NCBI RefSeq assembly: GCF_031127815.1
Contig: NZ_JARXHY010000008.1
Span: 62,001 to 126,000, forward strand
DNA length: 64,000 nucleotides
Direction of reading: 5' to 3'
From: Pelagicoccus sp. SDUM812003
GTDB lineage: Bacteria > Verrucomicrobiota > Verrucomicrobiia > Opitutales > Opitutaceae
The notes below the pieces were generated by a model. That model was not told the origin of the DNA. It was given only the letters and a program-made list of their open reading frames with translations, and made no database searches. Each line of letters starts with the position of its first letter. The first letter of the stretch is position 1. Positions 33,934 to 47,561 of the stretch are shown in pieces. The position numbers and the translations under genes are program-made.

Positions 33934-36417
33934 ATGGCGAAAAAGTCCAAAGCCTCCCAAGACAAACCCGAATCCGATATCAAACAAGCGAGCATGCGCA
34001 GCCGTTGGCTGTGGGCTGGCCTGTGCTTTCTGGTGGCGATCCTGCTCGCCTTGGCGTTGGGCGACTACACGCCCTACCAGATCTCCATCGGCCAGTCGGT
34101 CGGCACCACCAACCCGATCGAGAAGAACATGGTGGGCATCCTCGGAGCGGAAGCCAGCGAGCTGCTCATCGCCGCCTTCGGACGCATGTCCTGGTTCGTT
34201 CCCTTGTTCATCGGCTGGCTGGGTGCCGCTTTCATCGCTCGCGATCGGCGCTCAAAGCTCATCCTGACCCTGGTGATGATTCTCGCCATGATCACCGGAG
34301 CAGGCCTCTTCACCGCTACGGGAACCGCTTTCGAAAATCGGGAAGTCTACGTGACCGGCGTAGGTGGCGCGGTGGGCAACGTGCTCTACAACGACGTGCT
34401 GGACGTCTACGTGGGAAACGTGGGCTCCGCGGTCATCCTGGGAGCCATCTACCTGGCCTGCCTGATCATCATCATTTCGCCGAGCCTGCCGGAATCGGGC
34501 GCCGCCCTCAAAACCGCTTTCGCCAGCTGGCGAGAACGCCGGGCCGCGGCGGCAGCGGAACGCAAGGAAATGAAACGCCTCGCCAAGCAGGCCGCCGCAG
34601 AGGAAAAGGCCAAGATCAAGGAGCAGCGCTTGGAGGAAAAACGACAGCGGCGCGAGGAGCTGGAAGCCGCCAAAAACCTGCTGCGCGAAGCCAAAGGCCG
34701 CAAAAGGAACAAGCCAGAGGTCGACCCGGAACCGGAGGAAAAGCTTTCCCTGCCGCCTAAGGTCAACACCTTCAAGTCGAAGCCGGCCGAAAAGTCCACC
34801 GAGCCGGAGGAGACGGAGGAACCCAAGAAACCGAGCTTGGGCGAGGTGCTGAAGTTCGTGGCCCCGGAGAAAACCAAAAAGGCCCGGGCCCAGCTGCCAG
34901 CATCCTCTGGCGACTACACCTTTCCCAAGCTGGATCTGCTCAACGAGCTGGAGGCGCCAGACGGGGCGAACTCGGAAGAGGAGCACGCCGAAAACGCGGA
35001 GCGCCTGCAAAAGACGCTCAAGGAGTTCGGCGTGGAGGTCAGCATGGGCGAGATCCACATCGGTCCGGTCATCACGCGCTACGAAGTCTATCCCGCCCCG
35101 GGCGTGCGCGTGGAGAAGATTTCCAATCTGGACAAGAACATCGCCCTGGGCATGCGAGCCGTTTCGGTTCGCATCTTGGCCCCGGTTCCCGGAAAGGGCT
35201 GCGTGGGCATCGAAGTGCCGAACCAAGTGCCCATGCCGGTCGGCATTCGCGAAATCCTGGAATCCGAAGATTGGGTGAAATCCAAGGCGGAAATCCCCAT
35301 CGCCCTCGGACGCGACGTCTCCGGCAAGCCCATCATTTCCGATCTCACCAAGATGCCTCACCTGCTCATCGCGGGCGCGACCGGCGCCGGTAAGACAGTC
35401 TGCATCAACGCCATCATCACTTCCCTGCTCTTCCACTCCAGCCCGGAAAACCTGCGCTTCATCATGGTCGACCCGAAGATCGTGGAAATGAAGGTGTTCA
35501 ACTCCTTGCCGCACATGCTCATCCCAGTGGTGACCGACCCCAAGAAGGTGCCCGGAGCCCTCAAGTGGCTAATCAACGAGATGGAGCATCGCTACGAGAT
35601 GTTCGCCAAGGTGGGCGTGCGCAACATCGCCGGCTTCAACGGACGCAAGAAACCGGAAAAGGAAAAGACCGACGAAGAAAAGCTGGAAGAGGAACTGCAA
35701 GGGGAACTGGAAATCAAGGTCCCGCGCGACGAAGGCGTTCTGGACGAGATCCCCGACAAGCTTCCCTACATCGTTTGCATCGTGGACGAGCTGGCCGACC
35801 TCATGATGGTGGCCCCCGCCGACATCGAAACCGGCATCGCCCGTCTCGCCCAGTTGGCCCGCGCCGCCGGCATTCACCTGGTCCTGGCCACGCAGCGTCC
35901 CTCGGTCAACGTCATCACCGGCGTCATCAAGGCCAACTTGCCCTGCCGTATTTCCTTCCAAGTCTCCTCCAAGATCGACTCCCGCACCATCCTCGACGGC
36001 GCCGGGGCCGAGCAGCTCATCGGACGCGGCGACATGCTCTTTTCTCCCCCAGGCAGCTCCCGCCTCATACGCTCGCAGGGCGCCTTCGTCTCCGACGAGG
36101 AAATCGCTGGCATCGTGGACTTCCTCAAAGCCAACGGCCCCCCGAAGTTCGCCGAAGAGGTGCAGAAGCAGATCGAAGCGGGCGACGAGTTGGATCTCGG
36201 CGGTGGCGACGGGGAAGACGGCGACGAAATGCTGCCCCAAGCCATCGAAGTTCTCCGAGCCACCAAACGAGCCTCCACCTCCATGCTGCAGCGTCGCCTC
36301 CGCATCGGCTACAACCGAGCGGCACGCCTGATGGAAGTCCTGGAAGACCGCGGCATTGTCGGCCCCGAAAACGGCTCCAGCCCCCGCGAAATCCTAGTGG
36401 ATCTGGATTCCATGTAA
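33934..36417 (+). CDS. ftsK: DNA translocase FtsK/SpoIIIE
   Basis: The product has 827 residues. Four membrane helices lie in the first 190 residues (the first is RWLWAGLCFLVAILLALALG). A charged, Ala/Glu/Lys-rich coiled coil and linker follow, about 200-320. The motor domain has Walker A GATGAGKT at 481-488 and the Walker B-type LPYIVCIVDELADLMMVAP. VLATQRPSVNVITGVIKANL is also conserved. The C-terminal gamma winged helix reads TSMLQRRLRIGYNRAARLME, which reads KOPS-like DNA signals and activates XerCD. It pumps chromosome termini through the closing septum. All motifs are intact. It has no close partner on the same strand. Confidence 0.96.
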   Translation: MAKKSKASQDKPESDIKQASMRSRWLWAGLCFLVAILLALALGDYTPYQISIGQSVGTTNPIEKNMVGILGAEASELLIAAFGRMSWFVPLFIGWLGAAFIARDRRSKLILTLVMILAMITGAGLFTATGTAFENREVYVTGVGGAVGNVLYNDVLDVYVGNVGSAVILGAIYLACLIIIISPSLPESGAALKTAFASWRERRAAAAAERKEMKRLAKQAAAEEKAKIKEQRLEEKRQRREELEAAKNLLREAKGRKRNKPEVDPEPEEKLSLPPKVNTFKSKPAEKSTEPEETEEPKKPSLGEVLKFVAPEKTKKARAQLPASSGDYTFPKLDLLNELEAPDGANSEEEHAENAERLQKTLKEFGVEVSMGEIHIGPVITRYEVYPAPGVRVEKISNLDKNIALGMRAVSVRILAPVPGKGCVGIEVPNQVPMPVGIREILESEDWVKSKAEIPIALGRDVSGKPIISDLTKMPHLLIAGATGAGKTVCINAIITSLLFHSSPENLRFIMVDPKIVEMKVFNSLPHMLIPVVTDPKKVPGALKWLINEMEHRYEMFAKVGVRNIAGFNGRKKPEKEKTDEEKLEEELQGELEIKVPRDEGVLDEIPDKLPYIVCIVDELADLMMVAPADIETGIARLAQLARAAGIHLVLATQRPSVNVITGVIKANLPCRISFQVSSKIDSRTILDGAGAEQLIGRGDMLFSPPGSSRLIRSQGAFVSDEEIAGIVDFLKANGPPKFAEEVQKQIEAGDELDLGGGDGEDGDEMLPQAIEVLRATKRASTSMLQRRLRIGYNRAARLMEVLEDRGIVGPENGSSPREILVDLDSM

Positions 36418-36421
36418 AACC

Positions 36422-36516
36422 GGTAGGGCGTGATCGCCGCGCCACGCCTAGCCAACCTACAGAGCGGGGCGCCGACCCGCCACGCCTCCAACGTCGCCTC
36501 AACGCGGCGACCTACA
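36422..36516. repeat. REP-like palindromic element, copy 1
   Basis: It begins GGTAGGGCGTGATCGCCGCG and ends near CGGCGACCTAC. The first 20 bases match copy 2 (starting 37513) at 18 positions. It contains several GC-rich inverted segments (GGGGCGCCGACCC; GTCGCC with GGCGAC). It lies just after the ftsK stop codon. The sequence and position fit an intergenic REP-type element, and it may double as the ftsK terminator. Confidence 0.55.
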
Positions 36517-36761
36517 GCACGGGCAGACGTCAAATCCTCCCCAAAGCCCTCCATTCTGTTGGGTTAGCTTACGTAGATCCCGAAATCCAAATCCCATTCG
36601 TAAGTGCCTGCATTTCTGAGCCTTATGAGTCAGTTCAGGAAAAACTACTCACCGCCCGTCGGAAATCCGTACAAAACCTCAAAAGCCCGAGTTTTTCAAA
36701 AAAAAGTTATCCCACACAAATACAACGACTTACAGTACATCTAGAAGCATACCCCAGGCAT

Positions 36762-36777
36762 TGGCATACCAAATGCA
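36762..36777 (+). promoter_or_regulatory. Candidate sigma-54 promoter of the VPDSG-tailed gene
   Basis: TGGCAT-ACCAA-ATGCA has the invariant GG and GC dinucleotides separated by exactly ten bases and matches the -24/-12 consensus TGGCAC-N5-TTGCA at 9 of 11 defined positions. Transcription would start about 19 bases before the ATG at 36807. The site overlaps a small imperfect inverted repeat (GCATTGG...CCAAATGC), so a chance match cannot be excluded. Family knowledge: genes for PEP-CTERM-type exported proteins are often under RpoN control. Confidence 0.5.
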
Positions 36778-36806
36778 CCTTACTACCCATCTAACGCCCA
36801 CGCCAT

Positions 36807-37427
36807 ATGAAAAAATTCAAACTTGCTGCTCTCGTACTCTCCGTAGTCTTTTTGGCCGCGAACACAGTTTCCGCTATCGTAATGAACGTAACCGTAGATG
36901 GTTCCGGAGACTACCTTCAAGATGGGAACATAAATAGCGACAACAGCTTAGCCTCCGTAGCTTTTTACCAGACGGCATTGGGAATCTCGAGTGGAAACCC
37001 AAACGGCCGAGCGGATAACTTCAAATTCCTCGAAACCGTTGTTAAAAACTGGAATGATAACAATAGCCCCCAAATACCCGACGCAGTACTTGGAAGTACT
37101 CCGACTGCGGACAATGGTAATTTGGGAGACATCTCGAGCTACACGACGGTCTCTGGATTTGACTATGTAGTTTTTCACTTTGGCAATGGACCAGCTGGAG
37201 GTGGCAATGATGACGATGAGAAAGGTTGGTGGGCTGCTTGGTATCTTGGAGGACAGAGTGCAACTTTTGGCCTCCCCCAAGAAGGATCTCCTTTGAAGGA
37301 TGTTGGTGGTTTTTCTACTGCTCGGTATTTTAATCCAACAACCAACGTTCCCGATTCCGGCACAACGCTCGCTCTTCTCGGACTTAGCCTTCTCGGACTG
37401 ATCGGCATCCGTCGCTTCCGCCGCTAG
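36807..37427 (+). CDS. Exported protein with VPDSG-CTERM sorting tail
   Basis: The product has 206 residues. A Sec signal (MKKFKLAALVLSVVFLAANTVSA) is followed by a roughly 155-residue domain rich in Asn, Gly, Ser and aromatics (VDGSGDYLQDGNINSDNS, DYVVFHFGNGPAGGG, GWWAAWYLGG). The tail has the tripartite exosortase form: VPDSG at 181-185, a hydrophobic helix (TTLALLGLSLLGLIGI) and a basic end (RRFRR). Family knowledge: VPDSG-CTERM proteins are processed by an exosortase in Opitutia and relatives and end up on the surface or in the matrix. No exosortase is in the window. Codon use is more AT-rich than its neighbours. It has its own promoter candidate and terminator, so it is monocistronic. 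Confidence 0.88.
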   Translation: MKKFKLAALVLSVVFLAANTVSAIVMNVTVDGSGDYLQDGNINSDNSLASVAFYQTALGISSGNPNGRADNFKFLETVVKNWNDNNSPQIPDAVLGSTPTADNGNLGDISSYTTVSGFDYVVFHFGNGPAGGGNDDDEKGWWAAWYLGGQSATFGLPQEGSPLKDVGGFSTARYFNPTTNVPDSGTTLALLGLSLLGLIGIRRFRR

Positions 37428-37461
37428 CCCTTCGCAAGAGCAGATAGTTACAAATTTATAG

Positions 37462-37494
37462 AAAAAGCCGACTGGAAAACCAGTCGGCTTTTTT
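37462..37494 (+). terminator. Intrinsic terminator of the VPDSG-tailed gene
   Basis: AAAAAGCCGACTGG and CCAGTCGGCTTTTT form a perfect 14-bp stem with an AAAA loop, ending in a run of six T. It lies 35 bp after the stop codon. The A-run on the other side makes it potentially bidirectional. Confidence 0.93.
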
Positions 37495-37510
37495 GCGGGG
37501 AGTGTTCTTA

Positions 37511-37601
37511 AAGGTAGGGCGTGACCGCCGTGTCGCGCCTTTCTCGTAGCGAGAAAGACAGGAAAAGCGAGAGGTCCGAGACGGCGCTCGGACCCTACCT
37601 T
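37511..37601. repeat. REP-like palindromic element, copy 2
   Basis: Perfect 9-base inverted ends (AAGGTAGGG at 37511-37519, CCCTACCTT at 37593-37601) enclose a long imperfect palindrome. Its centre is a small perfect hairpin, TTTCTCG-TAG-CGAGAAA. The left arm, GGTAGGGCGTGACCGCCGTG, is nearly the same as the start of copy 1 after ftsK. The element lies between the VPDSG-gene terminator and the 3' end of the giant protease gene. Confidence 0.65.
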
Positions 37602-37663
37602 GAATCGCAGCGCGTACATTGTCCTAAGCTCGAAGCGACGACCAACAAGAATCGGACCTTCCC

Positions 37664-40600
37664 CTACTCGCCTTCATCCGCTTTGGCCCTCACGTAGATG
37701 GGGGCTCCGACCTGCTCGATGTCCATCGTCTTTCGTCCATCCTCAGCCTCCATCATCCACTGAGTCAGCGGCTGCCAATTTACGAAATCATGGCTGAACT
37801 CGTACTCGATTCGCGGCTGAACGTTATAGCCCTTCAGTTCAAGTTCCATCACCGACCCCGATCCCATGATCTCGATCTGAAACGGCACCGTAGGATCCAA
37901 ACCTAATGCAAATTCTATCTCGTTGGTAAGGTTATCGAGATCTCTATCAAGGGCTTCCATACCCTCACCCATTTCCAGCAGCTCGCTCTCTGAATAATAC
38001 ACTTGTATCCACTGATCGAATTCAACGCCCTCCAGTGAATCGAGGCGACCCTTCTGACGCAGGACATGCAACTCTCCACCTATCTCAAGCAAGGTTTCGC
38101 GCATCTGCGTGGTCTCATTGCTCTGATAAGTCACTCCAATGCTTGAGCGACCAATGCCCGAGGCCCTATCGAGCTGTATCCATGCAGGAACGCCCGTCAC
38201 TTTCCAACTCAGCAACGAGTCGATCTGCAACGCATACCCGCCTTCGCCCGGGCCTACTCGTAGCGCGGCCTGAGACAACTCCGAGGCCGAAACTGGTGGC
38301 TCATTTCCTTGTGAACTCGTACCGATCAGCTGGATACTTCGATCTTCTTCGTCGCTTGCGGAGGACAAGTACAACCGCCCCGTTTCGTCCACGACTCCCT
38401 TTCCTTGCAACGTTTCAGCTTCGTCGTGCTCTCCCATCAGGGCGACGATCGCTTCGCCATCGGGTGCCACGATGACGAGCAAAGAGCCGGCATCGCCCAG
38501 CGAGATCTCCTGCAACCCTTGAAACGCGGTCGCGGGACCCTCGAGGGCCTTTTCAAATCGGACCGGACCCACACACTCGATTTCACCCGCAATCGTACCC
38601 GTTTCTTCCATACTCAAAATCAGTGTCTCTTCTCCGGCGTCTTCCAGAACGATGGCGGTCTCGGAAATCTCGACTACGGAATAGATCAAACTGCTGGGTA
38701 CTCCATCGACATCACAAATCGCGATCAGCAAGCCTGCTTCAGATTCTTCGTCAAACCAAAGCATGGCATGCGATCCTGGCACGATTTCGTGATCCGAACG
38801 AGCAAGCGCTTGAGCCGCGACATTCGGTCCCTCGTGTCGATAAACGCCTGGCATGGAGCGCTCCTGCTTCACCGTTGCTTCCGCAAGAAGAATACCATCC
38901 CCCTCTCCCGTCTGAATCCGAATCGCTCCTTGCAAGACAATGGCTCGCGCATTGGGAGCAGCGCGGAAGGTTAAGGAATCTTTGCTCGCCTCTCCACTAT
39001 CGACAAACGTCAGCCAATCCGGATACGAAAGCAGTTGCCAGTCCGACATCGCATCGATCTGCAGGGAAAACTGCCCGCCGAAACGATCCAGTTCGACCAA
39101 ATCCGGAGTCACAATCAAATAAGGCAGCGGCTGTTGGAGAATCCTATGCTCGACACCAGAGATGGACAGGACGGCGCTTCTGGGCACGCCTGAATCGTTT
39201 TCCCGGACCGTCACGGCGACCTTCCCATCTCCTACGCCCGCGCTCGCATCGACCGTTATCCAATCCTCCTCGAAAACGACATTCCACTCGGAGTTGCTGC
39301 GAATCTCGACCGTGTAAACGCCGCCTTCACCTCCCAGCTCCTTCTCTAACGGATCAAGATCGAGGAAGGCGGCGACGCCTTCTTGTATCAGCAGGATTGG
39401 CACATCGCCTAACATCAAGGTGCCTGTTCGCTGGTCAACCGATTCATTTGCGAAAACCTCGAAAACGACTACGCCGTCACCTGTTCCATTCGTGGATTCC
39501 AGCTGCACCCAACTCGGATGGGTCGTGACTTGCCAGCTCGTGTTCGCATCCACTCGGATCGAGGACAGACCACCGGAACTGGAAAAGGTCGTCTGCGCCG
39601 GATTTAAGTCCAAGAAAGCCTCAGCGCCAGCCTGCTTCACCTCTAGCTCCACCTCTTCAAATCTCAAATACGCTACCCTATCCTCAGCCCAATGGGTCTC
39701 AGGCACAGAGATGCGTATCGTGCCATCTCCCACCCCCGAGCTCGGCTCGACTGTCAACCAAGGGTGAGAAGCGCTCAGAGACCAGGAAACGTTGGATTCG
39801 ATCGCCACATCGACCGCGCCGCCTACCGACCGAAAGGAAGTCATGGGGATTCCAAAGGCGAACCGACTTTCGAATCCAGCCTGAAAGATCATCAGCTCTC
39901 CCAACTCCATCCTCTGCTCGCCTCTCATATGGTAAAAGCGAATCCCGGATTGTCGCGAAGCGCTGTCAGGATTTTTCGATACGGAAAATGAGATCTCGCT
40001 CGATTCCGTTGGCGTCTCCGAATTCAGCGTAATCCAGTCTGCAAGGCTCTCCGCTCTCCATTGCGGGTAGTTCGTTTGGACCTCAATAGCGGAGAGTTCC
40101 TCACCGCCCTCGAATCGCTGTTCCGATTCGAGCAGCGTAAAGTACCCAATGCCCGTTTGAACGATTTCTCTAGCGAATCCGTCAACCACAAGCTCACCGG
40201 TTCGTTGATAAAGCCCCGTATTCGCGTCGACCGTGACCGTGGCAATTCCATCGCCCAAACCAGACTGCCTATCGACGCGGATCCAGTCAGCGCGCGGCGT
40301 CACTGCCCAAGTGCGATTCGAATCGATTGTAAGCTCGAAGCTTTCTCCAGCAGAAGGCGCCTCGCCAACGAATCCTGAAACGTCGAACCAAGGCTCCGCT
40401 CCTTTCTGGGCTATGGCAAGGGCATGTTCGCCGATGGATAGAGTCGCCTCTCGATCCACCGCGTATTCGTTTTCGTATACGGAAAGCGAGATCTGCGCAT
40501 CTCCTAGCCCAGAGGTCTTATCCGCGTCGATCCATTCAGGCAGCCCTGTCAGTTCCCAGTTTGTGTTCGATAAAATGGATACGACAAAGCCTCCACCTTC

Positions 40601-43600
40601 ACTTTCAAACTCCCGCTGTAGCGGCGATATCGATACGAAGGCTTCGGCACCCTCCTGCACGATCAAGTGAGTCGCATCACCGACAAATACGCTCGCTTGG
40701 CGAGGCTCCAAAGATGGATTTTCCAACACGGAGACCCTCACGAGCGCGTCCCCTTCTCCAAGGGCTGGAAACACGCTGACCCACGGGCTGGTCGAATCGA
40801 TTTCCCACGGAATATTGGACCTGATTTCCAGCTCGTATTCGGAAGCCTCGCTGGACAGCGATCGACTGGGCGGCGTAACTGAGAGTACGGGTACGAAGGC
40901 GTCTTGGATGATTCTGCAGCGGCGATCTATCGAAAGTTCGTCACCGTAGGAGAACACCAGCTCGACGGACCGACTGGATTCCACCAGGTTTTTTGCAACC
41001 GTGAAGGTGATACGAGCATCGCCATCTCCAGCGCCCGGACCGTAGGAGATCCAATTCGTCTCACCATCATTGCTTTCATCTCCATAATCTAGATACGAAC
41101 TCCAAGCATCCCAATTGGTAGCGACATCGATGGAAAGCGTTCCTCCTTCAGCGCCGATTTGCAGCTCATCGCTTGATACCTCGAAATAACCCACGCCCGA
41201 TTGGTAGATCTGGTGCTCCGAAAGCGGGGTGACGAGAAAGCCGAATCGCGAGGCGAGCGCTTCCGAGTTCGCCGCTACCGCGACCGATAGAGACGCGTCT
41301 CCCTCGCCCTCATTCGGTTCGACTTTCACCCAGTCCGCGGGCGTGGCATCGTCATCGACCGAGTCTAACTGAATCGCTTCGATCCTCCATCGGGTGTTGG
41401 ACTCGAGCTGCAGTAGATAATCGTCGCCAGAGGTGCCCACGCTCCTCTCCAATGGATTGAAACGTATATATTCATTTTCCGAATACTGCCAGATTTCGAA
41501 TACCGAGCTCTCCGTCAACGATTCGAGGGCGATGCGGACGATTCGAAGGGCGCCGGATTCGTTTTCGGTCAAAGCGAATTCGATTGCTCCGACTCCATCG
41601 GTTTCCGTTGCCGACTCGAAAGTCGCCCAATTCGCATCGGCAACGGGCACGAAGGATCCCTCTTCGTCCAGCTTCCCGTATGCGGTGATTTCGGCCGACC
41701 AGAGGTCGTTGGAAACCACCAGCGCTTCGACCGTTTGGGCCTCCGGCCCCGCAAAATACGTTTCCCGCTCCGGCTCGAGGTAGGCGATGCCAGAGACGAA
41801 CACCTCATGCAGGTCCATCACCTCGGGCGTCTGAACGGAACGAGCCACGACCCTGGCAAGCAGGGGTCGCAAGCTCTGCTTATTTTCATCTGCCTCAACG
41901 ACAAGCGTGGCGTCGCCCTGCCCACTGAGTTCGCTTATTTGCAGCCAATCGCCCGAGGTCGCTTCACCAGTCATCCAGTCGAAATACTCGATCTCGATTT
42001 CCCAGTCCCCTTCGGCTTGCAGATCCAGTTCGTAGCTGCCTCCCGAGCTGGGCAACGACGCGCTCGAGGACGCGAAGGCCACGGCAGGATCGAAGGCGAG
42101 CTGGGTCAGCTGCAAATAGGCCTCGAAAGGATAATCGAATCCCAAGTCGTCGGTTGCCCAAATCGATCCCTCTCTGGTCTGGCCCGTGATGTTCGCGCTC
42201 ACCTCCACCCAGACGCGTCCTTCTCCCGCTCCGTAGAAAGGCTCGATGCTCACCCAATCAGGCCCGTCCATCGACCACGCCCCCCGGTTGGTTCGCACTG
42301 TTAGCTCGAAGCCCTCGCCAGAACGCGGAACCACTCGTTCACTCTCCGAGAGGTACATGTATCCCGAAGAATCCTGAAAGATATCGTGACTTGCAACTCC
42401 CGCTGAAAGGGCGCCGAGGCGGTGGTAGTAGTCGGTGTAGTTCGGGTCCACCCTCACAGAGATCGTCGCGTTGCCATGACCCGAAGTAGGAGATGCTTGA
42501 ATCCAAGTCGCAGGTTCGGAGATATAAGTTTCTTCGATATCGAAGCTCAAGAGCTCAATGCGCCATGACGTATTCGATTCGATCGCGATCTGATACGTTT
42601 CGCCGTCTGAAGAAACTGACTTTGTGGCGGGATCGAAGCGCACGTAGTCCTGATCTGAATACTGCACTACCTGAAAACTGTCCTCCACCGTCGGCGAACT
42701 CACTTTCACCCGAGCGACCCGTGTGGTCCCGCTTTCATTGAGAGCCACCTCGCAGTTTATTCCAATCCGGTTTCTCGGATACCCTTCGCTTCCTTTCTCA
42801 AACAAAAGCCAGCCAGTGTCGTCGCCCGAAACAAACGTCCCCTCATCGTTCAGTTTGCCATACTCAATCACCTGAACCTGCCACAATTCGTTGGAACGAA
42901 CTTCGATGAACTCCGAGCCATCGCTAGCATCCATGTAGATAGCGTTCTCGGGTACGAGCGTATAGACCGCGGCGGCGTTTTCATTCTGATACACGTAGAC
43001 TTCCTGGCCGAAAACATGAAACGTCATGGATCGGGTCCATGGGTAAGGATTGGGGTCCACCTCGAGTTCGACCGTCACCGCGCCCTCGCCTTCAGATGGC
43101 GAAACACGAGCCCAGCCCTGTCCACCGCCTGGTTGTGGATCGACAAATCGGCTCTCGATCGACCAATCGCTGTTCGAATCGATCTCGAACTGTCCGCCTC
43201 CTCCTTCGCTCGCGAGAAAGAAGGACCGCCTTTGGGGGTCCAAAAGGTAATACGGCTGACTCGGCGTCTGCTCAAGCACGTGCAGAACGCTGCCTAGCTC
43301 GCGATCCCCAATAGCAATGCTCATACTTCTGAGAAATCCTCGATCATCGGGCTTCACGGAAACTCGAACCAAGCCGACCCCATTCTCGTATGAGACTTCG
43401 AAATCCGCCCAGTCCAAGAAATCGGTGGCTATCCGGGCTCCTGCTTCATCCCAATACATCCCGCCTGAAACCCAGGCCTCCAGGTTCGGTAGATTCGACT
43501 GCAACGAGATCTCGTACGTTCCTCCATTCGCTCCGATCCGCTTTTCGCTGAGATCGATTTCGACTTCCGGTGGCCTCCCGCCTTGGGAGATGAATAAGGT

Positions 43601-46150
43601 ATCGTAGCGACTCCTTACGTAAGCACCACGTGGATACAAGCTGTCGTTTTCGCTTATCTCGAAGAAGATCGTCGCATCTCCGCTCCCCTGCGCTTTCGAA
43701 AGCGAGATCCAATCTTCGCCCTCGTACTCCTCACCGTAGTCGACCTCCAGTTTCCAATCCGTGTTGGCATAGAAATCGGCTTCGTTGATGCTTGAGAGGT
43801 GCGATAGGCTAAGCGCCCCGTATTCAAAAATCCCATAGGGCTTCGTCGCTTGCGTCACTCGATGCCAGACTTCAGTCCCGCCAGGCTCACCCAAGCCGAC
43901 GGTCGCTTCCCTCAGATAGCCTTCGTTGGCCTGAAGCGAGATCGTGACCGCGTCTCCCATATCCGACTTCTCGATTTCGATCCAGCTCGCCTCCGAATCG
44001 GAAAGCACGTTTCCATTCGGCAATCTCAGTCGAACCTCTTCGATCCATACCTCCCACTCCTTAAGATTGGTCTCAACTTCGATTTCGTAGGAACCGCCTT
44101 CGATGCCGACGCTTTTTTCCTGGGGCTCAATTTCCAGATAGGCAGCGGCAGCCTCCTGGCGAGCCCGATGCTCGAAGGTATCCGCGCCCGAACTCGCGCG
44201 CACCAAGGCTACCCGAGCCTCGGCGTACGGATTCGCTTCGAACTGCAAGGTGATCGATGCGCTTCCCGTTCCGCTTCCTAGAGCGGGCGTGAGCCAGTCC
44301 GAATCGCTGCTCAGGCTCCAGTCGCCATTCGTCACCACATCGATGTCGTAGGTCTGACTATCGCTCGAAACCGTTCTCTCGCTCGGCGAGATTACGACCT
44401 CTCTGGTTTCGAGCTCCACTGTTAGCGAGTGCAGAAACGAGAAATCGCCTGATTCAGACAAACGGAACAAGGAGAAAGCCAGCAGTTCGTTTTCGCTCTT
44501 AGCCAACATGGGAACGCTGAAGCAGAGCTCGTCCGAGTCCGCTTCGCTAAACACGCTGTAGTCCGGGCCTTCATTGCGCCAGACCCAGCGGTCCTCCGGA
44601 TCGATGCCCGAGATCCTAGGCTCGATCTCGAGGTAGAAGCTTCCTTCTCCCGGAGTGTGGGCGCAGACCTCTACGAATCCTTCGATGCCTTCTACGAGAT
44701 CCGCGTTCACCGAAAGGATCTTGTATCTGTCGTCGCTATCTCGATACGCCGAAACCCAAGGCAGCGTCTGCTCGAACACCTTGCGATTGTCAGCCGAAGC
44801 CGGCTCGTTTATGGGGACTCCCGCAGGATAGCCTTCCCAAACGAGGTCAGGATTCGAGAAAATCGGAGCCCGCCAGTAGTTTCCGGAATCCGGCGGATTG
44901 TATGCCATCACGGTGCGGTAGTATCCCTCGTAGCTTATGTATCCAAAATTATAATCGAACAGTTCGGTATACTCGCAGGAGCCATCTTCGGTGCCGCAGG
45001 CCGCCAGACGATCGTGAGTCGCCCCTAGATTATGTCCGATCTCGTGAGCGAGCGTGAGGTCCGCCACGGACCAACGCCTCAGGATCGAATAGCCGTACCT
45101 ACCTCGTTGATCGTAGGAGTTCATCAAATAGGCGCTGCCAGCGATGTTGTTCTTCAATTCGTCAACCACGAGACAGACCAGATCCGCAGCGTAGAGATCT
45201 CTCAGTTCATGGGCCTCAGGCATGTATTCGTCGCCGCTGAAGCGCAGCCGAAAAAGATCGGTACTCGAATCGCCTGTCGCCTGATAATCCGTCCGTACTG
45301 CTCCCGCAAATACGAGGCGCCCCGGGATGTCGGAGTTCATAAACGCCGCATTGGCGAGTTCGATTCCCACGATGGCATCGTCCTCCAATCTGCTTTGCTC
45401 TTGCTCCGCCTCGTCGGTGTAGAGAAAGAGCACTCGCACCTGATGAGCCGCATCATCCTGATCAAACTCGATTTCCGCATCATAAGGGGGCGGCTCGGCA
45501 TGGTGGCTGGCCGGATCTGCGGAAGCGTCGATCGCCTCCGCCAAGAGAGGCTCCGCGCACTCGCCCAAGGCGTTTCGATCGATCTCATCCACACGGTGCC
45601 TGTCTTCGCCATCTGAATACAGCCTGTATTGTCCGTCTCTTCTATCGACCACCGCGGTGAGACGCCCTTCTCTGCGGATCATGACGATCGTTTCCGCCGG
45701 ATCGGCCCAGCCCTCTGCGAAAAAGGCTTCGTAGCCAAGGCGATCGAACCTCCGCGTGAGACGGGCATCGATGCGCGCATCCTCGAAGAGATCGAGCTGG
45801 AAGGCATCTCCGGGCTCCATCTGGTCGACCGCGTCGAGGTCCACCACTAAAGATCTGGAGCGAATGACGTGGCGGGCGTTCAGCCCTTGAGACGCTTCGG
45901 CGACGGTGGGCGGGGCGCTGCGATGGTAGCGGGATACTAGCGATTGCCGCTCCGCTTCTTCGTTTTCCGAAGCGACGTGACCGCCCCTGGTTTCCTCGGC
46001 TTCGTAGCGAGCAGGTTCTCTGGAGGGCGAAGGGGGTTCCGGAGCCTCGGCTGGTGCGACTTCGGAACCAGAGGGCGACAGGCGCCAAAGCGTTTGCGTA
46101 GCTGCCGCCAAAAGGAGGCAAAGCGATGCGGCTAGCAGAAGCCGTTTCAT
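37664..46150 (-). CDS. Giant secreted zinc metalloprotease with about 21 BACON-type repeats
   Basis: The product has 2828 residues from the ATG at 46150 (GGGAGG about 9 bases upstream). A GTG five codons earlier is less likely. Residues 1-25 are a signal peptide or anchor. A propeptide-like region extends to about 235. The catalytic domain (about 236-475) opens with VRVLFLYTDEAEQEQS and has the extended zinc motif HEIGHNLGATHD at 369-380 and a later met-turn candidate (YRTVMAYNP), as in M12/reprolysin-like metzincins. From about residue 585 to 2701 come roughly 21 copies of a 90-100-residue BACON-like beta-sandwich (pattern GGxYxIxIxSNxxWxI...DWIxxxxxxGxGDxxIxxxVxxN). A unique insert lies before the last copy. 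The C-terminus has DRDLDNLTNEIEFALGLDP. Likely a surface or secreted protease that binds carbohydrate or mucin. Confidence 0.9.
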   Translation of the reverse strand: MKRLLLAASLCLLLAAATQTLWRLSPSGSEVAPAEAPEPPSPSREPARYEAEETRGGHVASENEEAERQSLVSRYHRSAPPTVAEASQGLNARHVIRSRSLVVDLDAVDQMEPGDAFQLDLFEDARIDARLTRRFDRLGYEAFFAEGWADPAETIVMIRREGRLTAVVDRRDGQYRLYSDGEDRHRVDEIDRNALGECAEPLLAEAIDASADPASHHAEPPPYDAEIEFDQDDAAHQVRVLFLYTDEAEQEQSRLEDDAIVGIELANAAFMNSDIPGRLVFAGAVRTDYQATGDSSTDLFRLRFSGDEYMPEAHELRDLYAADLVCLVVDELKNNIAGSAYLMNSYDQRGRYGYSILRRWSVADLTLAHEIGHNLGATHDRLAACGTEDGSCEYTELFDYNFGYISYEGYYRTVMAYNPPDSGNYWRAPIFSNPDLVWEGYPAGVPINEPASADNRKVFEQTLPWVSAYRDSDDRYKILSVNADLVEGIEGFVEVCAHTPGEGSFYLEIEPRISGIDPEDRWVWRNEGPDYSVFSEADSDELCFSVPMLAKSENELLAFSLFRLSESGDFSFLHSLTVELETREVVISPSERTVSSDSQTYDIDVVTNGDWSLSSDSDWLTPALGSGTGSASITLQFEANPYAEARVALVRASSGADTFEHRARQEAAAAYLEIEPQEKSVGIEGGSYEIEVETNLKEWEVWIEEVRLRLPNGNVLSDSEASWIEIEKSDMGDAVTISLQANEGYLREATVGLGEPGGTEVWHRVTQATKPYGIFEYGALSLSHLSSINEADFYANTDWKLEVDYGEEYEGEDWISLSKAQGSGDATIFFEISENDSLYPRGAYVRSRYDTLFISQGGRPPEVEIDLSEKRIGANGGTYEISLQSNLPNLEAWVSGGMYWDEAGARIATDFLDWADFEVSYENGVGLVRVSVKPDDRGFLRSMSIAIGDRELGSVLHVLEQTPSQPYYLLDPQRRSFFLASEGGGGQFEIDSNSDWSIESRFVDPQPGGGQGWARVSPSEGEGAVTVELEVDPNPYPWTRSMTFHVFGQEVYVYQNENAAAVYTLVPENAIYMDASDGSEFIEVRSNELWQVQVIEYGKLNDEGTFVSGDDTGWLLFEKGSEGYPRNRIGINCEVALNESGTTRVARVKVSSPTVEDSFQVVQYSDQDYVRFDPATKSVSSDGETYQIAIESNTSWRIELLSFDIEETYISEPATWIQASPTSGHGNATISVRVDPNYTDYYHRLGALSAGVASHDIFQDSSGYMYLSESERVVPRSGEGFELTVRTNRGAWSMDGPDWVSIEPFYGAGEGRVWVEVSANITGQTREGSIWATDDLGFDYPFEAYLQLTQLAFDPAVAFASSSASLPSSGGSYELDLQAEGDWEIEIEYFDWMTGEATSGDWLQISELSGQGDATLVVEADENKQSLRPLLARVVARSVQTPEVMDLHEVFVSGIAYLEPERETYFAGPEAQTVEALVVSNDLWSAEITAYGKLDEEGSFVPVADANWATFESATETDGVGAIEFALTENESGALRIVRIALESLTESSVFEIWQYSENEYIRFNPLERSVGTSGDDYLLQLESNTRWRIEAIQLDSVDDDATPADWVKVEPNEGEGDASLSVAVAANSEALASRFGFLVTPLSEHQIYQSGVGYFEVSSDELQIGAEGGTLSIDVATNWDAWSSYLDYGDESNDGETNWISYGPGAGDGDARITFTVAKNLVESSRSVELVFSYGDELSIDRRCRIIQDAFVPVLSVTPPSRSLSSEASEYELEIRSNIPWEIDSTSPWVSVFPALGEGDALVRVSVLENPSLEPRQASVFVGDATHLIVQEGAEAFVSISPLQREFESEGGGFVVSILSNTNWELTGLPEWIDADKTSGLGDAQISLSVYENEYAVDREATLSIGEHALAIAQKGAEPWFDVSGFVGEAPSAGESFELTIDSNRTWAVTPRADWIRVDRQSGLGDGIATVTVDANTGLYQRTGELVVDGFAREIVQTGIGYFTLLESEQRFEGGEELSAIEVQTNYPQWRAESLADWITLNSETPTESSEISFSVSKNPDSASRQSGIRFYHMRGEQRMELGELMIFQAGFESRFAFGIPMTSFRSVGGAVDVAIESNVSWSLSASHPWLTVEPSSGVGDGTIRISVPETHWAEDRVAYLRFEEVELEVKQAGAEAFLDLNPAQTTFSSSGGLSSIRVDANTSWQVTTHPSWVQLESTNGTGDGVVVFEVFANESVDQRTGTLMLGDVPILLIQEGVAAFLDLDPLEKELGGEGGVYTVEIRSNSEWNVVFEEDWITVDASAGVGDGKVAVTVRENDSGVPRSAVLSISGVEHRILQQPLPYLIVTPDLVELDRFGGQFSLQIDAMSDWQLLSYPDWLTFVDSGEASKDSLTFRAAPNARAIVLQGAIRIQTGEGDGILLAEATVKQERSMPGVYRHEGPNVAAQALARSDHEIVPGSHAMLWFDEESEAGLLIAICDVDGVPSSLIYSVVEISETAIVLEDAGEETLILSMEETGTIAGEIECVGPVRFEKALEGPATAFQGLQEISLGDAGSLLVIVAPDGEAIVALMGEHDEAETLQGKGVVDETGRLYLSSASDEEDRSIQLIGTSSQGNEPPVSASELSQAALRVGPGEGGYALQIDSLLSWKVTGVPAWIQLDRASGIGRSSIGVTYQSNETTQMRETLLEIGGELHVLRQKGRLDSLEGVEFDQWIQVYYSESELLEMGEGMEALDRDLDNLTNEIEFALGLDPTVPFQIEIMGSGSVMELELKGYNVQPRIEYEFSHDFVNWQPLTQWMMEAEDGRKTMDIEQVGAPIYVRAKADEGE
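38048..44398 (-). repeat. Tandem array of BACON-like domain repeats inside the giant protease gene
   Basis: Protein-level repeat block covering about residues 585-2701 of the metalloprotease. I count 21 units by the recurring N-terminal beta-strand and tryptophan (for example YDIDVVTNGDWSL, YQIAIESNTSWRI, YELEIRSNIPWEI, VVSILSNTNWEL, YTVEIRSNSEWNV) and the later GxGDxxIxxxVxxN turn. Copies differ a lot in sequence, so the DNA does not form close direct repeats. This points to old duplications or strong diversification. Confidence 0.8.
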
Positions 46151-46730
46151 CGCATCGCCTCCCACTGTCGACTGCGAATTTCGGCAGACATGGAGGGTTG
46201 GCCCATCGAATGGGCGCCAGACATTTCAAAGTTGGTCGCGGGGCGGAACCGAGCTTCGCAGCGACGGACCGCTTCCCGCTACAGGCAGACTCTAAAGGGA
46301 TATACGCAACGCTGGAGCGAGCAAACCCATATGCCATTTCGCAGTTACGGGCCTGTACGAAAGGGCTTCATTCGACTGCCCCTAGGTCTCTTCGGGGCCG
46401 ACTATCCGCTCCCAGCCTAGGCCCTCGCTTAGATTTCGCTGCGTGCAAATCACTAGTAGAACGAACTCGGGGCAAACAAGGGTCGCAGCGCCCTATCGTC
46501 TACGCGCTTTCTCGACCAAAACGCCGCTTCGAGAGCCAGCTAGACCTTTGCGTGCCAGCTGGGGCCGAACTGCCAACGCAACCCGCTCATCTCTACGAAA
46601 ACGATTGAAAGCCATCGACTTGCCGCAAAGCTTCGCTAACTCCGCCCAAATCGCGTCTTCCCGGGGAAATCTCCGGAACTGCCGCTTTGGAGACTTGTTT
46701 TACATCCATTTCCCATCTAACTAACAGGAT
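46151..46730. other. Gene-free 580-bp intergenic region
   Basis: This separates the divergently read giant protease gene and rodZ, so it should hold both promoters. I see no protein-like frame, tRNA or strong palindrome, and no convincing sigma-70 or sigma-54 match. Only the GGGAGG ribosome binding site of the protease at its left edge is clear. Confidence 0.5.
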
Positions 46731-47561
46731 ATGCAGAGTATTGGCGAAAGACTTGAAGAGGCGCGGAAGCGCAAAGGCGTCACCATCCGAGAAGCCGCGG
46801 AGGCTACCAAGATTCGTGGCGACTACCTCAACAGCTTCGAGAACAACAATTTCACCATCAACGTGCCCGAGATCTACGTGCGTGGATTTCTGCGTTCCTA
46901 CTGCAATTTTCTCAAGGTCAACAGCGAGAAGGTCATCACCGACTACAACGCCAGCCTGATCGGCGAGGCCAAAGCGGCCAAGCGCGAGCATCGGGAGTTC
47001 TTCGGACGCATGGAGCTGCAGCAGCCGCTGGTCTCCGAGGAGCCGCAAGGCGCAACCCCAGCCGAGGAGCCCAAGGAAGAGCCCCGCGGCGAGAAGGAGA
47101 GCAAGCTGACGTCCTTCTTCGACAACATCGAAAAGGAGGTCGCCATCAAGATCGGCATCATCGCCGCTGCCGCCCTGCTCTTGGTCATCGTGCTGGTCTG
47201 GCTATTCCGCGCCTTGACCAGTGGCGGAGCCGACGAGGGCGCCGCGACCACGCCGTCCAATCAGATGGTTCCCACTCAGAGCCAAACCGCCACCCCTTCC
47301 GCCCAGCCCGCGGAAACCAAATCCATCACCCTGATCGCCACCGGCGACGTGCGGGTGACGGTGACGGAGCGCAGCACCGGTCGCGTGCTTCTCGACAACC
47401 ACCCCATGTTCGCAGGTCAAGAGGAACCCATCGAAATCCGCGATTCGGTCCGCATCGAGTACAACGAAGGCGCGAATCTCAACGTGGAAATCAACGGAAC
47501 CGCCTACGGAACCAACAAGACCGGACCGGGCTACTCCACAATCGACAAGAGCAAGATCTAG
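46731..47561 (+). CDS. rodZ: RodZ-like cell-shape protein (HTH - TM - DUF4115)
   Basis: The product has 276 residues. The N-terminal cytoplasmic helix-turn-helix (GERLEEARKRKGVTIREAAE, then KIRGDYLNSFENNNF and the diagnostic PEIYVRGFLRSYCNFL) is the HTH_25 form of RodZ. A charged linker, one membrane helix (IKIGIIAAAALLLVIVLVWLF, about 138-160), a Ser/Thr/Pro/Gln-rich linker and a periplasmic DUF4115-like beta domain (SITLIATGDVRVTVTERSTG) follow. RodZ ties MreB filaments to the elongation machinery. It is followed by a strong terminator and looks monocistronic. Confidence 0.85.
   Translation: MQSIGERLEEARKRKGVTIREAAEATKIRGDYLNSFENNNFTINVPEIYVRGFLRSYCNFLKVNSEKVITDYNASLIGEAKAAKREHREFFGRMELQQPLVSEEPQGATPAEEPKEEPRGEKESKLTSFFDNIEKEVAIKIGIIAAAALLLVIVLVWLFRALTSGGADEGAATTPSNQMVPTQSQTATPSAQPAETKSITLIATGDVRVTVTERSTGRVLLDNHPMFAGQEEPIEIRDSVRIEYNEGANLNVEINGTAYGTNKTGPGYSTIDKSKI

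Follow-up and report, generated by a model that had tools for sequence, protein, structure and literature searches.

A 2828-residue putative secreted metzincin protease with 21 diverged BACON units in Pelagicoccus

The 64,000-nucleotide stretch of Pelagicoccus sp. SDUM812003 DNA analysed here (the window) carries an uninterrupted gene, at 37664..46150 on the reverse strand, whose product joins a metzincin protease head to 21 diverged BACON units. We read this protein as a secreted, self-inhibited zinc endopeptidase of adamalysin type (M12B-like) borne on a long chain of BACON Ig-like domains, and put the probability of that reading at about 0.6. From end to end it comprises a signal-like N terminus, a prodomain, the metzincin domain, a linker, 20 BACON units, an insert, a final BACON unit (number 21) and a tail.

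The protease is notable for its length and for its bearing on BACON function. Mucin binding is frequently attributed to BACON although the evidence is thin, and a 21-unit chain beside a protease offers a clean test case for telling a spacing role from a binding one, as either length or multivalent binding ought to be measurable. The protein also suggests that Pelagicoccus has a modular set of very large exported proteins, which combine heads, arrays and tails in different ways.

Gene, prodomain and protease head

Open reading frame analysis gives 2828 codons from an ATG at 46150 to a stop at 37664 (all parts of the protein discussed below lie on this reverse strand), and the gene sequence has an N count of 0, in agreement with the 8.5-kb gene of the first-pass annotation. 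An alternative GTG start at 46165, just ahead of the ribosome-binding site, would add five residues; the ATG is favoured because GGGAGG sits 7 nt upstream of it. The protein has a computed mass of about 311 kDa and a pI of 4.2. A sequence search of the PDB with the whole protein returned weak matches alone: in the best (E 0.0047) a glycoside hydrolase chain aligns with a BACON unit, and in the next ones snake-venom proteases align with the head.

The N terminus (about residues 1-24; 46079..46150) reads as signal-like, with MKR followed by a hydrophobic stretch, and the prodomain (about residues 25-225; 45476..46078) aligns with the corresponding part of related proteases. The catalytic domain (residues 226-475; 44726..45475) is matched by Pfam Reprolysin_5, _4 and _3 at 7e-11 to 1e-7 (Reprolysin_5 at 7.3e-11). 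Its zinc motif, HEIGHNLGATHD (residues 369-380; 45011..45046), follows the HEXXHXXGXXHD pattern of M12B-like metzincins, and the three His and the Glu of that motif are invariant across ten aligned sequences, as is the Met-turn Met415 (RTVMAY; 44906..44908), which is invariant in two alignments of relatives. An AlphaFold2 (AF2) model of residues 226-668 built from 34 sequences places most of the catalytic domain above pLDDT 90, and most of the linker (residues 476-581, with two Cys; 44408..44725) and of BACON unit 1 below 50. Foldseek with the head of this model returned 6o38 as top match (E 3.2e-12), followed by snake-venom adamalysins and ADAMs, so that the zinc motif reported at 369-380 is now accompanied by a metzincin head supported by Pfam, Met415 and fold. 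The PDB title of 6o38 lists a chaperone-substrate complex, which we take to be CpaA with its chaperone CpaB. Furthermore, the best named NCBIfam match of the protein, also on the head (best stretch residues 238-466), is the Mep72 model (NF052434), at 65.2 bits and thus far under the equivalog cut-off of 645.

Cys198 of the prodomain (LGECAE; 45557..45559) is a putative cysteine switch on the zinc, a term used here with the likeness to ADAM prodomains in mind. Of 15 prodomain-bearing sequences, own included, 13 have a Cys at this column or adjacent to it; L061 has its Cys beside the column, and L019 and L093 are without one. The 15 were kept from 18 chosen sequences, leaving out L137 (which did not pass the filter), L013 (a copy of L071) and L095 (without a prodomain).

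The BACON array, insert and tail

Starting from six units of the protein itself, an iterative profile converged on 21 BACON units, 20 of them contiguous (about residues 582-2425; 38876..44407) and one further on (about residues 2620-2710; 38021..38293). Because this profile was trained on the same units that it detects, each unit was also scored with a profile built from the remaining 20, which gave 26.5-76.4 bits against a top shuffle of 12.8 (500 shuffles per unit) and ruled out chance or low complexity as the source of the repeats. Pfam PF13004 scores 289 bits on the whole chain (cut-off 25; E 6.9e-88); taken singly it marks seven stretches at E 0.001 and 20 at E 10, the remaining units resting on the leave-one-out profile. 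As such, the count of about 21 units in the first-pass annotation holds, and the repeat block does score as BACON in the profile search proposed there. Two Trp are invariant in 21/21 units, bearing out the conserved Trp noted earlier in each repeat, and Asn, Arg and Gln positions are near-invariant.

The units are diverged rather than identical, as first described, with a mean identity of 27%, and Tandem Repeats Finder reported no DNA-level tandem repeats in the gene above the threshold used. Recent tandem repeat or assembly expansion is not supported, because of these two observations. Long-term selection on the array, which the divergence had been taken to argue for, is plausible given that some residues are conserved throughout the 21 units.

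A model of units 13-14, built on an alignment of ten non-overlapping unit pairs, reached pLDDT 97.5 and superposes on the BACON domain of BoGH5A (3zmr) with Z 14.2 and an rmsd of 1.5 Å over 82 residues, the next row scoring 11.1. Foldseek alone put the BoGH5A BACON 25th and 26th, after larger structures with repeated domains. The Ig-like fold is thereby borne out for this pair, unit 1 having modelled poorly. Structure rows spanning both modelled units align at 5 Å or more and are therefore uninformative on how the units are placed relative to each other. If each unit had typical Ig-domain dimensions, 20 of them might extend to roughly 80 nm, a figure that is a guess.

Resemblance within the array is highest between units four apart, the best mean offset score being equalled in 0.34% of 20,000 shuffles of unit order (p 0.0034). 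Units 6-9 (41789..42970) align with units 10-13 (40646..41788) over 351 residues with 35% identity and seem to stem from an ancient duplication of a four-unit block. When the units were compared with 102 units from 38 other loci (unit 3 dropped, being too short), the best match lay inside the protein itself for 13 of 20, against a mean of 3.1 and a maximum of 12 with shuffled labels, and seven of 20 were closest to units of other proteins. Given this division of best matches, the array seems to have expanded in place only in part, the rest coming from units that are older or were exchanged.

The non-BACON insert and the EFALGLDP segment at the C terminus are both as earlier described. The insert (residues 2426-2619, with two Cys; 38294..38875) has no significant Pfam match, and a PDB sequence search gave nothing convincing (best E 0.09). 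Its homologs occur in three of 29 genomes, own included, the other two lying in congeneric BACON giants of 3012 and 3345 residues; two Cys and one Trp are conserved in the three aligned sequences. The tail (residues 2711-2828; 37667..38020), with its acidic D.D.DN..NE.E motif, has zero Pfam or NCBIfam matches and has relatives in nine of 29 genomes, own included, and at six places in its own genome, this protein among them. The 3012-residue protein (L030) has BACON, BACON, insert, BACON and tail in the same order as the protease. The 3345-residue protein (L029) shares BACON and the insert with it, and neither BACON nor tail was found downstream of that insert. Both carry RCC1 propellers beside BACON, one has a sulfatase-modifying-factor-like domain as well, and Pfam lists no metzincin in either.

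Giants of this kind (L030 2078-11116, L029 2621-12658 and L199 4459-14877) span 3012-3472 residues and combine BACON with beta-propellers (RCC1 or DUF5122); in L029 and L199 the sulfatase-modifying-factor-like domain lies close to the C-terminus. In addition, the own genome encodes a protein with leucine-rich repeats and BACON units, the first four of which recur at intervals of about 336 residues (L031 939-6521).

Genomic setting and occurrence

The protease gene lies between genes for a VPDSG-CTERM protein (36807..37427, forward strand; TIGR03778 4.8e-10, PF18205) and a RodZ-like protein (46731..47561, forward strand), which NCBIfam RodZ models match under cut-off. The latter forms the right border of a slot whose left border (33934..36417, forward strand) presumably encodes an FtsK/SpoIIIE-type DNA translocase, a name taken from sequence resemblance. 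An ftsK-type gene followed by a rodZ-like gene was found in 8/8 Pelagicoccus genomes (window 33934-47561 and L192-L198), with intervals of 133, 180, 1329, 4379, 4476, 5478, 8081 and 10,313 bases. The two shortest intervals are without a gene, one genome has a single gene with a VPDSG-type C terminus, and four have a VPDSG-type gene with a protein of 1070-1088 residues, which is FG-GAP/UnbV_ASPIC in the one copy scanned (L193); the slot of G007 adds an M6-type peptidase and that of G006 a 353-residue ORF. In the window the slot holds the VPDSG-CTERM gene and the giant protease. With variable cargo between conserved borders, the protease gene therefore probably represents a gain or the replacement of earlier cargo in a slot for exported proteins. 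The VPDSG-CTERM model was run on two slot proteins, those of the window and of G004, and matches both; the window protein has a clear relative at the equivalent place in G004. Its own genome also has two exosortase-family matches.

With the own genome included in all counts of occurrence, the head was found in 18/57 genomes and BACON in 15/57, and in 64/384 genomes of the class; some part of the protein was matched at 1e-10 in 81/200 genomes of the family, at most two candidates being scored per genome. By profile, metzincin and BACON domains share one frame in L080 (two BACON), in L098, L084 and L067, which are one gene (one BACON), and in L068, L112 and L109 (one each). A zinc motif without a catalytic-profile match accompanies BACON in L043 and L201 (two each) and in L042 and L089 (one each); L043 and L201 fall under the Reprolysin_5 cut-off in Pfam, the catalytic comparison of L201 being by Pfam alone. 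Pfam confirms BACON or BACON_2 in L080, L043, L201 and L112 and does not list BACON in L098 at 0.01. The catalytic match was obtained in 126 loci, some from one same gene and some with a flank of only 1.5 kb, and because of that short flank BACON further downstream could go unseen in some of them. The next highest BACON count among the frames fetched, which are part of the BACON frames of the class, is eight units (L030). A Bacteroidota-type search, in which 9/12 genomes were Bacteroidales, Prevotellaceae, Chitinophaga, Balneolales or Rhodothermales, gave matches in two, the one frame counted having four units. Two further metzincins, L032 1384-6825 in the own genome and L039 2088-7385 in the same genus, have RCC1 propellers and PKD domains in place of BACON.

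The search of relatives for the same architecture, suggested in the first-pass annotation, thus had a divided outcome: fusions of metzincin and BACON exist, with one or two BACON, and no counterpart was found in the seven other Pelagicoccus genomes, which leaves the protease present in 1/8. Judged by sequence, the combination is already known in related bacteria and the 21 units are an extreme version of it. Open-licence literature searched for tandem BACON with Verrucomicrobi contained no description of such a protein, and a search for BACON metalloproteases with Verrucomicrobi found M60-like proteases and no such protein.

Phage and plasmid origins were considered and rejected. Against phages, the array gave a single weak match (E 9e-6, with 23% identity over 173 residues). 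In 11 viral loci whose catalytic stretch is related, ORFs of at least 200 residues contained no BACON at E 0.001. Among the plasmid matches listed (10 of 42 records), the head alone was matched.

Proposed role and comparison with known systems

The proposed mechanism would begin with export by Sec, the enzyme being kept latent by its prodomain with Cys198 on the zinc, as conservation of that residue suggests. Passage of the outer membrane would follow, perhaps through a type II system, and four secretin-family matches are present in the own genome. The prodomain would then be removed, and the enzyme may act on extracellular proteins or glycoproteins. A glycoprotein substrate is no more than possible, because glycoproteases are described as indistinguishable from other proteases by sequence (PMC7542363). 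The 20-unit array, enlarged in part by what would be a four-unit block duplication, could serve as a spacer that keeps the enzyme well apart from the C-terminal tail, and the tail, with relatives on other and mostly large proteins of the genus, would be the likeliest attachment or sorting part. The gene itself may have been gained, or have replaced earlier cargo, in the variable ftsK-rodZ slot. Inspection of the protein sequence by eye showed no lipobox or known surface anchor, and for this reason, with the self-release described for Mep72 as a precedent (PMC4334185), the protein may be released rather than attached. The fibre or stalk first envisaged is retained as a likely spacer; nothing points to the host or algal surface at which it was said to hold the head.

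A rather unlikely alternative to the passive spacer is that the array binds glycans multivalently and so gathers the protease on a matrix of polysaccharide or glycoprotein. The name of BACON designates it as a carbohydrate-binding module, and mucin binding has been predicted for it (PMC9853417, PMC3048395), and the substrate cleft of CpaA, an Acinetobacter glycoprotease of family M72, is described as formed with Ig-like domains (PMC7542363). Similarly, Mep72, a biofilm-secreted Pseudomonas aeruginosa metzincin of 599 residues, joins a similar head to a pair of carbohydrate modules, and its self-cleavage is slower in the presence of alginate (PMC4334185). However, the one BACON reported as tested, that of BoGH5A, bound none of the substrates tried (PMC9853417), and bacterial BACON is described as a spacer or linker in PMC11216935 and PMC6949934. 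The carbohydrate or mucin binding earlier ascribed to BACON is accordingly a prediction in these sources and was not upheld. Moreover, the invariant or near-invariant W, W, N, R and Q of the 21 units may equally be structural.

It is quite improbable, in our view, that the protease matures and cuts itself off to be freely released, the array staying behind or being degraded. The metzincin domain of Mep72 does cleave itself free of its carbohydrate modules (PMC4334185), and Mep72 is the best named NCBIfam match of the head here, though at the low score given above; yet a 20-unit array would be costly if merely removed, and no processing site is known. That the array serves no purpose and is a repeat expansion drifting neutrally is very hard to believe. 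Its presence in one of eight Pelagicoccus genomes would fit such drift, as would a third-position G+C of 0.633 for the gene against 0.634-0.838 in 19 other listed window ORFs (among six other BACON-carrying proteins, three are lower, at 0.487-0.569, and three higher, at 0.650-0.793). Against this, 2828 codons stay open without a stop, the two Trp are invariant and N, R and Q nearly so despite the divergence of the units, and the repeat is no longer present at the DNA level. Beyond the preferred reading of a secreted protease on a spacer, a doubtful extension of it would make the protein a cell-tethered cysteine-switch glycoprotease held tens of nm off the surface, with BACON as a length-adjustable tether in Verrucomicrobiota. 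In congeners a similar tail and BACON set would then bear different heads (RCC1 propellers, leucine-rich repeats); heads would be swapped over evolution, with the ftsK-rodZ interval as one exchange slot.

Among known systems, Mep72 resembles the protease in having a signal sequence, an adamalysin-like metzincin and tandem C-terminal modules, but those modules are two carbohydrate-binding modules rather than 21 BACON units (PMC4334185), and the equivalog cut-off of its NCBIfam model is unreached here. CpaA, the top Foldseek match of the head, likewise has tandem Ig-like domains and a metzincin in one chain and is secreted (PMC7542363). It differs in having four Ig-like domains and a C-terminal catalytic domain (PMC7542363), whereas here the catalytic domain at 226-475 stands ahead of the array, so that the order is reversed, and the units number 21. 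CpaA has a dedicated chaperone (PMC7542363); the neighbours of the protease gene encode the VPDSG-CTERM and RodZ-like proteins.

On the side of the array, a crAssphage protein also has tandem diverged BACON domains that grew by duplication, but it is a tail-associated phage protein with eight per ORF, and its duplications are of single domains rather than of a four-unit block as in the protease (PMC6949934). BoGH5A (PDB 3ZMR) shares the BACON fold, as the comparison with units 13-14 indicates, and unlike the protease has a single, N-terminal BACON on a glycoside hydrolase (GH5; PMC11216935). The M60-like mucinases of BT4244 type are similarly extracellular metalloproteases with BACON (PMC3267712); unlike the protease they belong to family M60, termed gluzincin in PMC7542363, and carry an N-terminal BACON with CBM32 (PMC3267712). 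The metzincin-BACON frames L080, L098, L068, L112 and L109, with L043 and L201 as weaker cases, have both kinds of domain in one frame as the protease does, and they differ from it in carrying one or two BACON units in place of 21.
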